From: Gemmatimonadota bacterium
GTDB lineage: Bacteria > Gemmatimonadota > Gemmatimonadetes > Longimicrobiales > Gaopeijiaceae
DNA length: 64,000 nucleotides
NCBI GenBank assembly: GCA_030428885.1
Contig: JAUIEJ010000007.1
Span: forward strand, 1 to 64,000
Direction of reading: 5' to 3'
Shown one piece after another: positions 41,619-44,709 of the stretch. Numbering within the stretch: position 1 is the stretch's first letter; each line of letters starts with the position of its first letter. Position numbers and translations under genes: made by a program. The notes under the pieces were generated by a model, which did not search any database, was not told the DNA's origin, and saw only the letters and a list, made by a program, of their open reading frames with translations.

Positions 41619-41636
41619 TGTCCATATTGCTTGACA
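41619..41636 (+). promoter_or_regulatory. PpsR/CrtJ-type operator TGT-N12-ACA
   Basis: TGTCCATATTGCTTGACA fits the TGT-N12-ACA consensus of the photosynthesis repressor PpsR/CrtJ. Its last six bases are also a perfect -35 box TTGACA (41631-41636). It lies 110 bases upstream of pucB. A site overlapping the -35 is the expected arrangement for repression by oxygen or light. A chance match is possible (six fixed bases); no second copy was seen nearby. Confidence 0.5.
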
Positions 41637-41745: not shown

Positions 41746-41907
41746 ATGCCAGATCTGGACGATCCGGACCGCGTGTGGCCGACAGGACTCACGATCCGGG
41801 AATCGGAGGAGCTTCATAAGCACGTGATCGATGGCACTCGGGTCTTTTTCCTGATCGCCATCGTCGCCCACGTGCTGGCCGCCCTCTACACGCCCTGGCT
41901 CGGGTAA
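41746..41907 (+). CDS. pucB: LH2-type light-harvesting beta polypeptide
   Basis: 53 residues; GGGGAGG eight bases before ATG 41746. A 15-residue N-terminal extension precedes the conserved part: [16 protein letters not shown] then a single membrane helix with IVAHVLA and the closing TPWLG. His42 (VAH) is the expected B850-type bacteriochlorophyll ligand; His24 (LHK) and Arg32 (GTR) match residues around the B800 pigment in Rhodoblastus acidophilus LH2 beta, which reads [15 protein letters not shown]. The match is to LH2 rather than LH1 beta. It sits in the intracytoplasmic or inner membrane and pairs with the alpha polypeptide encoded nine bases downstream. Confidence 0.95.
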
Positions 41908-41916
41908 GGAGGAAAG

Positions 41917-42060
41917 ATGAACCAAGGCAGAATCTGGACCGTCGTGAAGCCGACGGTGGGCTTGCCGCTGTTCCTGGGGACGGTCCTCGTGATCGCCATC
42001 CTGGTGCACCTGGCCCTCATCAACAACACGGATTGGTTCCCGGCCTACTGGAACGGCTGA
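41917..42060 (+). CDS. pucA: LH2-type light-harvesting alpha polypeptide
   Basis: 47 residues; AAGGAGGAAAG sits directly before ATG 41917. Sequence opens [17 protein letters not shown], nearly the R. acidophilus LH2 alpha start (MNQGKIWTVVNPAIGIP), then one membrane helix with His31 (ILVHLAL) and the end WFPAYWNG. Met1 is the B800 ligand position in LH2. Tyr44 and Trp45 fall at the same numbers as the residues that hydrogen-bond B850 in LH2, so an 850-nm-like band is predicted over an 800/820 type. LH1 alpha proteins look different (MWxLW start), so LH1 is rejected. Outer-ring LHh of Gemmatimonas phototrophica is a possible functional equivalent. Confidence 0.95.
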
Positions 42061-42087: not shown

Positions 42088-42125
42088 GGACTCCGGGGTT
42101 CGGCGCTCTGCCGGGCCCCGGGTCC
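42088..42125 (+). other. Intercistronic stem-loop downstream of pucBA
   Basis: GGACTCCGGGG (42088-42098) pairs with CCCCGGGTCC (42116-42125) over 10 bp with one bulged T and a 17-base loop, 28 bases after the pucA stop. In purple bacteria stem-loops after pucBA/pufBA protect the antenna message and set its excess over downstream genes. The same use is inferred here. Confidence 0.6.
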
Positions 42126-42159: not shown

Positions 42160-42729
42160 ATGCTCATGGGTGTGCGCATCTACCCCGATGAATCCGGCGC
42201 GCGGCGCGCGTCCGAAGCTCTCGTCGCCGCGGGCCTGGACCCGGGGATGATCACCGTCCTGATTCCCGGCGCGAGCTCGGAGGCGGCGACGGTCCAGACG
42301 GCCATCGAGGCCCGGCGCCTCCCGGAGAGTCACCGCAAGGCGGCCACCGCGGCCCTCGGGCGAGGACAGGCCGTCCTGTCCGTGGACCTTCCCTACGAGA
42401 GCCAGGTCGCCCTGGACATCATGGAGGCCCACGGGGCCGTGGACACGGCGTCCCTTCCCCAGGTGCCCCCCCGGGACCCGAGCCCCCTCTCCGACGCGTT
42501 GGGGCTTCCGGTGCTGACCTCGTCCAGGAGCACGACGCAGCTCGCTCCGAGCCACCAGTTCATGCTCGGATTCGGGGCGCTCCTGACCCGGTCCCAGGGA
42601 CCCACCTTCGGCGGGAACCTGACGGGCAGTCAGAGCGCCCCCGACCGCAGTCTGGGATTCCCGACGCTGTCGAAGAACCAGAAGGGGCCGGACCGGAGCT
42701 TCGGGTTCCCCACCCTTCTCGGGAAGTAG
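42160..42729 (+). CDS. Unrecognised protein between pucBA and pucC, with C-terminal 16-residue repeats
   Basis: 189 residues; GGAG eight bases before ATG 42160. The N-terminal 100 residues (VRIYPDESGARRASEALVAA, MITVLIPGAS) look like a small alpha/beta fold of the kind seen in general-stress 17M/YflT-like domains. After a Pro-rich hinge (PQVPPRDPSP) the last 50 residues hold two clear tandem units, TGSQSAPDRSLGFPTL and SKNQKGPDRSFGFPTL, and a degenerate third (LTRSQGPTFGGNL). No signal peptide or membrane helix. Position inside the antenna operon suggests a role in LH assembly, attachment or regulation. I know no described antenna protein like this. Confidence 0.75.
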   Translation: MLMGVRIYPDESGARRASEALVAAGLDPGMITVLIPGASSEAATVQTAIEARRLPESHRKAATAALGRGQAVLSVDLPYESQVALDIMEAHGAVDTASLPQVPPRDPSPLSDALGLPVLTSSRSTTQLAPSHQFMLGFGALLTRSQGPTFGGNLTGSQSAPDRSLGFPTLSKNQKGPDRSFGFPTLLGK

Positions 42730-42757: not shown

Positions 42758-44173
42758 GTGACGACGCTGCGAGATCGGACGGTGCGGTGGCTGGCCACCC
42801 GGGGGGCCCGCTACCTCCCCTTCGCCGACGTCGCCACCGAGGATCTGCCGCTCCGGCGGCTCCTCCGCCTCTCCCTGTTCCAGGTCTCCACGGCCATGGC
42901 GCTGGTGCTCCTCGTGGGCACTCTGAACCGGGTCATGATCGTGGAACTCGGCGTGCCGGCCTCCCTGGTGGGGGTCATGATCGCCCTCCCGGTGGTGGCG
43001 GCGCCGTTTCGTGCGTTCATCGGCTTCAAGTCGGACATCCACCGGTCGGCCCTGGGGTGGCGCCGGGTGCCCTTCCTCTGGCGGGGCAGCCTGCTCCAGT
43101 TCGGGGGCTTCGCCATCATGCCCTTCGCCCTGCTGGTCCTGGCGGGAAAGGGCGAGTCGGGCAACGCCCCGGTGTGGATCGGGCACTCCAGCGCCGCCCT
43201 CTCGTTCCTGCTCGTCGGGGCCGGCGTCCACACCGTCCAGACCGCCGGCCTGGCGCTGGCCACCGACCTCACCCCCGCCCGCTCCCACCCCCGGGTGGTG
43301 GGGCTGATGTACGTGGTGTTCCTGTTGGGCATGGCCGTGAGCGCCCTGCTCTTCGGCGCCGCACTCACCTCGTTCACCCCGGGCCGTCTGGTGCAGGTCG
43401 TCCAGGGGGCGGCGGTGATGACCCTGGTCCTCAACGTGGTGGCCATGTGGAAGCAGGAGGGCCGGCGCCGACGATTCTCGTGGGAACCCGAGCCCCCGCC
43501 GGACCCCACGTTCGGGGAATCGTGGGCCGCCTTGCGGGAGGGCGGGAACGTGGCGCGCCGCCTGGTGGTGGTGGGGCTCGGCACGCTGGCCTTCGGGATG
43601 GCCGACATCCTCCTGGAGCCCTTCGGCGGGCAGGTGCTCGACCTCACCGTGTCGGCCACGACCCGGTTGACCGCCCTTTTCGCCCTGGGCGGGCTGCTGG
43701 GGTTCGGAGCGGCGTCGACGTGGGCCGAGCGAGGGGCCGATCCCCACGGGATCGCCCGGGTGGGCGCTGCCGTGGGACTTCCCGCCTTCGCGTTCGTGAT
43801 CCTGGCCGAGCCCCTGGGGATCATGGGCCTCTTCCTGGCGGGCAATGCCCTCATCGGGTTCGGCGGCGCCCTCTTCAGTCACGGCACCCTCACGGCCGCC
43901 ATGAACAAGGCCCCGCCGGATCAGGCGGGGCTGGCGCTGGGCGCCTGGGGGGCCGTACAGGCGACGGCGGCCGGGGTCGCCATCGCGGTGAGCAGCGGTC
44001 TCCGGGACGTGGTCACCCGGCTCTGGGGCGGAGACGACGTCGCCGCGGGCTACCTCTCGGTCTACGGTGTGGAGGTGGCCCTCCTCCTCGTCACCATCGC
44101 GGCGATCTGGCCCCTCATCGGGCGTCGGTCGGCGGAGGCGACTCCGGTGCCGGTGCCGGCCGCGGGACGGTAG
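42758..44173 (+). CDS. pucC: PucC-family (BCD) MFS transporter, antenna assembly
   Basis: 471 residues from a GTG at 42758. About 12 transmembrane helices. N-terminal PLRRLLRLSLFQVSTAMALVLLVGTLNRVMIVEL and the FRAFIGFKSDIH loop are typical of the PucC/LhaA/BCD family; VPFLWRGSLLQFGGFAIMPFALL and GVHTVQTAGLALATDL also match (segments named, not quoted in full beyond 20 residues: SLLQFGGFAIMPFALL). PucC is needed for LH2 assembly in Rhodobacter capsulatus. Its place 28 bases after the unknown protein completes a puc-like operon. Highly conserved charged residues lie in loops. Confidence 0.92.
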   Translation: MTTLRDRTVRWLATRGARYLPFADVATEDLPLRRLLRLSLFQVSTAMALVLLVGTLNRVMIVELGVPASLVGVMIALPVVAAPFRAFIGFKSDIHRSALGWRRVPFLWRGSLLQFGGFAIMPFALLVLAGKGESGNAPVWIGHSSAALSFLLVGAGVHTVQTAGLALATDLTPARSHPRVVGLMYVVFLLGMAVSALLFGAALTSFTPGRLVQVVQGAAVMTLVLNVVAMWKQEGRRRRFSWEPEPPPDPTFGESWAALREGGNVARRLVVVGLGTLAFGMADILLEPFGGQVLDLTVSATTRLTALFALGGLLGFGAASTWAERGADPHGIARVGAAVGLPAFAFVILAEPLGIMGLFLAGNALIGFGGALFSHGTLTAAMNKAPPDQAGLALGAWGAVQATAAGVAIAVSSGLRDVVTRLWGGDDVAAGYLSVYGVEVALLLVTIAAIWPLIGRRSAEATPVPVPAAGR

Positions 44174-44178
44174 GAGCC

Positions 44179-44709
44179 ATGGCCCGCCGGCCGATCCTGG
44201 AGTATCCCGACGCCGCCCTCCGGCGTCGTGCCCGGCCCGTGGCCGCGTTCGACGGCGCACTCGCCCACCTCGTGGACGATCTGACCGAGACCCTCCGGGC
44301 CACCGGGGGACTCGGCCTCAGCGCCCCCCAGATCGACGACCATCGGGCCGTCTTCATCACCGATCTCTCCGACGACGGGTCCGGCGTGCGGGCCTGGGTG
44401 AACCCGGCGATCGTGGACGCACGGGTCCCGGCCCTGGTGGAGGAGAGCTGCCTCTCGATCCCCGGCGTGGTGGGCAACGTGATCCGCTCCACCGAGCTCG
44501 ACGTGCGGGCCCGGGACGGGGCGGGACGGGCCGTGGAAACCCACCTGTCGGGCATGGAAGCCGTCGCCTTTCAACACGAACTCGACCACCTCGAGGGCCG
44601 CCTGTTCATCGACCGGCTGTCGGTGTTCCGTCGGCTCCGCATCGGGGTGGGGGCCCGTCGGCGGCAACGGCGCTCCGCTCGTCTCGACCCGCGCACGGGA
44701 TCCCGGTAG
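44179..44709 (+). CDS. def: Peptide deformylase
   Basis: 176 residues; ATG 44179 lies five bases after the pucC stop. The three metal-site motifs are GLGLSAPQI, ESCLS and QHELDHLEG. Motif 2 has Ser in place of the usual Gly (EGCLS), seen in some divergent deformylases. It removes the formyl group from nascent proteins. Distance to pucC suggests co-transcription. A basic C-terminal tail (RRLRIGVGARRRQRR) could bind the ribosome. Confidence 0.92.
   Translation: MARRPILEYPDAALRRRARPVAAFDGALAHLVDDLTETLRATGGLGLSAPQIDDHRAVFITDLSDDGSGVRAWVNPAIVDARVPALVEESCLSIPGVVGNVIRSTELDVRARDGAGRAVETHLSGMEAVAFQHELDHLEGRLFIDRLSVFRRLRIGVGARRRQRRSARLDPRTGSR

Follow-up and report, generated by a model that had tools for sequence, protein, structure and literature searches.

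The window that we analysed, a 64-kb stretch of DNA from a Gemmatimonadota genome of 5.39 Mb in 23 contigs (here G000), carries on its + strand an operon in which pucB, pucA, a gene that we call X, pucC and a peptide deformylase gene follow one another with short gaps throughout (for instance, 28 bp from X to pucC and 5 bp from pucC to the deformylase). The features of this operon are the following:

41619..41636, + strand: TGT-N12-ACA palindrome (PpsR/CrtJ-type), overlapping TTGACA, 127 bp before pucB
41746..41907, + strand: pucB, LH2 beta polypeptide of 53 aa, Pfam LHC; nearest solved relatives the beta chains of 7ZDI, 7ZE8 and 7ZE3 (E ~5e-23)
41917..42060, + strand: pucA, LH2 alpha polypeptide of 47 aa, Pfam LHC, N-terminus MNQGRIW; nearest solved relatives the alpha chains of 7ZE8, 7ZDI and 7ZCU (E 1e-21 to 4e-20)
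42088..42125, + strand: strong RNA hairpin in the gap from pucA to X
42160..42729, + strand: gene X, ATG start, 189 aa, LH2-linked, with an N-terminal alpha/beta domain and C-terminal 16-residue units
42160..42447, + strand: N-terminal domain of X, aa 1-96, predicted ferredoxin-like alpha/beta fold
42475..42522, + strand: first unit of X, DPSPLSDALGLPVLTS, aa 106-121, after the Pro-rich joint and kept in all six homologues
42640..42687, + strand: tandem unit PDRSLGFPTLSKNQKG, aa 161-176, from self-alignment
42688..42726, + strand: tandem unit PDRSFGFPTLLGK, aa 177-189, from self-alignment
42758..44173, + strand: pucC, MFS-like LH2 assembly factor (PF03209, E = 1.3e-142)
44179..44709, + strand: second, puc-linked peptide deformylase, with the motifs GLGLSAPQ, EESCLS and QHELDH

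The antenna polypeptides encoded upstream of X are truly of the LH2 type. The alpha chain is 79% identical to LH2 alpha of Rps. palustris over 47 residues, and the closest solved relatives of both window chains belong to the gamma-bearing LH2 of that organism (~79% identity), with other LH2 alpha chains coming next for alpha. Both chains carry the LHC domain and lie closest to LH2 chains, and the MNQGxIW start is present. An NCBIfam label of pucB as LH1 beta was rejected, since pucB is closest, among solved chains, to LH2 beta. In known LH2, Met1 of the alpha chain is the B800 ligand. In the literature searched, we saw no mention of LH2 genes from Gemmatimonadota, and the described members of the phylum use a double-ring LHh antenna with an LH1-derived outer ring, not LH2 (PMC12817894). 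In a further genome, G244 (L163 4050-4592), an LHC-family match (C1:290469-290591) lies inside a 180-aa ORF with an OmpA-like C-terminal part; it may mark an antenna-like helix that has become fused, or it may have arisen by chance.

In the window's own assembly, which is 95.4% complete, the reaction-centre L and M genes, PF08369 (PCP_red) and the BchH N-terminal domain were not found, and only one PucC-family gene is present. The X-bearing relatives of this genome do have such photosynthesis genes; all six holders of X have LH2 genes, and five of the six assemblies also contain reaction-centre or chlorophyll-synthesis genes. Either this assembly or bin lacks the photosynthesis gene cluster, or the cluster has been lost from the strain, leaving an orphan LH2 operon.

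X represents a real, undescribed family of LH2-linked proteins with a two-part build. Homologues were sought in 395 genomes of the phylum and then in 121 genomes of the window's family, and five further members at 28-38% identity were found beside the window protein (in G288, G400 (same genus), G151, G093 and G416), making six in all. Given that these homologues occupy the same gene slot, X is, on comparative grounds, a real gene, and the open reading frame that the earlier note had placed at 42160-42729 between pucBA and pucC does lie between genes with Pfam LHC and PF03209 domains. The earlier note had also proposed that synteny with pucBA be examined: each of the six members lies between pucA and pucC, and the order pucB-pucA-X-pucC-deformylase is constant in all six loci.

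Within the family, X was present in all six genomes with LH2-type pucBA and in none of the relatives without LH2-type genes. For instance, it was not found in G100, G101, G191 and G344, phototrophs of the same family with reaction-centre genes and a single LH1-type antenna pair. Nor was it found in G135 and G393, two genomes of another family (f5) in which pucC follows pucBA directly. X tracks one particular LH2 operon, neither phototrophy in general nor every LH2, and, as these two f5 genomes carry pucBA-pucC without it, it is dispensable for LH2 as such. The f5 loci (L122 8114-9862 and L161 6535-8351) contain an LH2-like pucBA whose alpha chains have long Ala/Pro tails, and neither X nor the deformylase. 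We also looked for homologues in non-phototrophs, whose wide occurrence had been named beforehand as a point against an antenna role, and every holder found carries LH2 genes. When patterns built from four members were run against 84,980 genomes, a scan that relatives in purple bacteria could escape, only three Gemmatimonadota MAGs already found were returned, and such named MAGs among the relatives support the placement of the window in this phylum; no relatives were seen in two scans of viral contigs or in plasmids searched with an X homologue, and the window protein had no match in Pfam or NCBIfam. A match in G302 was rejected as a member, being limited to the first, N-terminal domain and lying outside any antenna operon, and we attributed other matches, at E 1e-4 to 0.1, to chance.

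The N-terminal part of X, which had been described as fold-like, is predicted by AlphaFold as a confident domain for about residues 1-96. In the model of the whole protein, pLDDT is mostly 82-94 up to residue 90, lower beyond it and below 50 at residues 117-189, where no structure is thus predicted, and the domain modelled alone has a mean pLDDT of 82. Fold comparison (VIA-align) gave middling Z values of up to 7.6, reached by ActD of alternative complex III (rmsd 3.3 over 83 residues), with PII proteins at Z 6-7; matches in this range may reflect only a shared common arrangement, and Foldseek with either model gave no match under E = 0.001, with no PDB fold confidently assignable. In line with such a fold, two X homologues have weak profile matches to YflT (PF11181) at E 0.018-0.11, of which the best scores 16.0 bits, below the Pfam cut-off of 26.2 bits. 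The YflT and PII/ActD-type ferredoxin-like folds are thus similar to this domain by weak profile and middling fold matches; however, all of these matches fall below their cut-offs, and the proteins concerned have neither repeats nor a link to antenna genes.

The Pro hinge between this domain and the repeats was likewise confirmed as a Pro-rich joint. Over residues 98-189, the best self-alignment offset is exactly 16, with a score of 59 against a shuffle mean maximum of 24.5 (500 shuffles, p = 0.002), and the N-terminal 97 residues showed no periodicity in the same test (p = 0.15). This period bears out the two 16-residue units of the earlier note (residues 161-176 and 177-189); in addition to its degenerate third, a unit conserved across the family lies at residues 106-121, right after the hinge. 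Five residues of this first unit (P107, P109, S111, P117 and L119) are invariant across the six X proteins. The units follow the pattern P-[FLW]-x-S-x-[FL]-G-[FLM]-[PK]-x-L downstream of the Pro-rich joint, and an offset of 15 or 16 ranks among the best in five of the six members, with few and unevenly spaced units in G000, G288 and G416. The X protein of G416 (L118 3242-3856) also contains an inserted array of nine-residue units (RGKAKLANP), flanked by two normal units.

The earlier note knew of no antenna accessory protein of this type, but one does exist in Rps. palustris. Its LH2-gamma (PDB 7ZCU, 7ZDI, 7ZE3 and 7ZE8) forms an extended ribbon that passes around six of the nine alpha/beta pairs, close to the cytoplasmic side, with six 16-residue repeats that each provide one Ser ligating one extra bacteriochlorophyll, and it has been reported only from Rhodopseudomonas (PMC9618040). 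In LH2-gamma and X alike, the tandem units are 16 residues long and combine a G-x-P-L core with a charged/aromatic block, both proteins are without a transmembrane helix, both would be expected at one chain per many alpha/beta, and the polypeptides that they accompany are ~79% identical. Moreover, as one would expect of a protein like LH2-gamma, X is specific to organisms with LH2: it occurs in every LH2 holder of its family and was not found without LH2 genes. In contrast to LH2-gamma, which has ~97 aa, consists of repeats only and presents six regular units with the ligating Ser directly before Gly, X carries a further domain of 96 aa, its 2-5 units are less regular, and its gene lies inside pucBA-pucC.

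The resemblance of the repeats is also found by sequence search. When the X protein of G093 was compared by phmmer with 177,635 distinct PDB sequences, LH2-gamma (7ZCU_S) came first at E = 3.4e-5, with the runner-up at E = 0.58; LH2-gamma was first for the X protein of G151 too (E = 0.08), and window X matched no PDB sequence, gamma included. With gamma as the query against 38 whole genomes, the one match at E <= 0.1 was X of G093 (E = 0.003). Repeats inflate such E-values, and gamma also matches unrelated plasmid repeat proteins, down to E = 1e-4, with no X relatives there. As a null for the similarity, we used column-permuted gamma with the period of 16, which gamma and X have in common, retained. 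Under this null, four members were significant (p = 0.0003 for G288, 0.003 for G151, 0.019 for G093 and 0.025 for G416) and two were not (0.20 for G000 and 1.0 for G400); pooled over units, p was 0.07. The natural register of X against gamma, which sets KEGPWEKSFGMKLLSR against QEGEYKGYSGEPLILK, is the best among 16. Given that repeats inflate E-values and that the similarity is absent in some members, our claim is that X works like gamma, not that it is a member of the same family. The Ser that ligates bacteriochlorophyll in gamma is not conserved in register: in X units, the position before Gly, where this Ser stands in gamma, is taken by Phe, Leu or Ile (Met once, in an overlapping sequence window), and the Ser of X units, where present, lies one to three residues farther upstream. 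Pigment binding by X is uncertain for this reason.

In our view, the chances are about even that X does work in this way, as a cytoplasmic-side clasp on the LH2 ring. X would be an accessory subunit of the peripheral LH2 ring, with its C-terminal half forming an extended chain that provides about one 16-residue unit per alpha/beta pair. Each unit (P-aromatic/Leu-x-S-x-F/L-G-x-P-x-L) would clip the outer, cytoplasmic-side face of one pair, the chain would follow an arc of about 2-5 pairs, and the N-terminal domain would stay at the cytoplasmic surface, serving either as a cap or for docking. It is also conceivable that the conserved Ser/aromatic-Gly turns hold extra monomeric bacteriochlorophylls. 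By itself, the repeat half is not predicted to fold, which is what one would expect if the ribbon became ordered only upon binding the ring. Of the earlier suggestion that the short aromatic-Pro repeats are docking peptides for LH rings or PucC, the ring part has gained support, both from the strict linkage to LH2 and from the resemblance of the repeats to a ribbon that binds an LH2 ring; PucC might nonetheless be the partner in place of the ring.

The arrangement of the operon bears on how much X is made. The hairpin after pucA has a folding energy of -47 kcal/mol in the window (z -2.6), and stable hairpins lie after pucA in all six loci, those of G093 and G151 being far stronger and that of G416 having a z not beyond composition. 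A search of Rfam found nothing. In purple bacteria, such hairpins let the pucBA mRNA outlast its distal part, so that far more alpha/beta than downstream product is made. By analogy, the hairpin would suit a subunit present at one copy per ring, and it would suit an assembly factor equally well. X could indeed be an LH2 assembly factor, with repeats that hold new alpha/beta or dock on PucC and with no place in the finished antenna, given that it lies just before pucC and behind a strong hairpin, so that it is probably made at pucC-like levels, and that pucC comes after every X found. However, we consider this rather unlikely, as the two f5 genomes have pucBA-pucC without X, and neither a 16-residue period nor a likeness to a structural subunit is expected in a chaperone. 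Upstream of the operon, the palindrome at 41619..41636 is presumably a PpsR site, judging from the known consensus. Similar TGT-N12-ACA-like sites are present at <=400 bp before pucB in four of seven other loci (G135 and, of the five X loci besides the window's, the three of G288, G093 and G400), against five such sites in the entire 64 kb of the window. The puc operon may therefore be under PpsR-type control.

Extrinsic linker polypeptides are known in Gemmatimonadota: RC-S and RC-U of Gemmatimonas phototrophica are, like X, extrinsic polypeptides of an antenna complex without known relatives elsewhere (PMC10214105). X might similarly act as a tether, its N-terminal domain binding RC-LH1 or another cytoplasmic protein and its repeats binding LH2, so that the antenna is kept near the core, and a two-part build with a Pro-rich joint would agree with such a role. 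Nevertheless, RC-S and RC-U bind the RC-LH1 core, whereas X is linked to LH2 genes; neither window X, two homologues nor a profile matched the chains of the Gem. phototrophica complex (7O0U and relatives) in the PDB at E <= 10, although a sequence search may miss a remote relation; and no reaction-centre gene was found in the window's own assembly. We thus regard a tether as quite improbable. Least plausible is a regulatory or stress-type protein with a YflT/PII-like domain that would control the expression of puc or the turnover of LH2, for which the weak YflT and PII/ActD-like matches might speak, since its repeats would be an incidental low-complexity tail, in which neither five invariant residues after the joint in six divergent proteins nor a period of 16 would be expected.

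The last gene of the operon may be connected with the LH2 ring too. A second deformylase is present in exactly the six genomes with X, always directly after pucC (44179-44709 in the window; L117-L121), and among ten other genomes checked, nine had one deformylase and one had none that we could find. The six puc-linked enzymes group in a single clade (support 100/100) that is separate from the housekeeping enzymes, and their catalytic motifs are retained, except that motif I is changed in G416. The Met1 of LH2 alpha has to lose its formyl group before it becomes the carboxy-Met that ligates B800, which means that a dedicated enzyme makes sense. This carboxy-Met (Cxm1) has been reported in LH2 alpha, and in Rps. 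palustris it contacts gamma Leu95 (PMC9618040). Thus, the puc-linked deformylase may serve to prepare the alpha Met1.

A bolder version, which we hold only tentatively and think has a modest chance of being correct, is that X is a second, two-part kind of pigment-binding ribbon. It would wrap the Gemmatimonadota LH2 and add bacteriochlorophylls to it, would have either evolved apart from the Rhodopseudomonas gamma or moved from one phylum to another along with the LH2 genes, and would be produced alongside a deformylase dedicated to preparing alpha Met1, the B800 ligand, which touches gamma in Rps. palustris. An LH2 ribbon subunit has so far been thought peculiar to one genus (PMC9618040). If X works as we propose, a similar but differently built LH2-tied protein exists in another phylum and offers a second case for testing how such a ribbon binds, and the wrapping of rings would be a general way of adding pigment or stability. 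This suggests that antenna-ring wrapping is a wider, or a repeatedly invented, trick.
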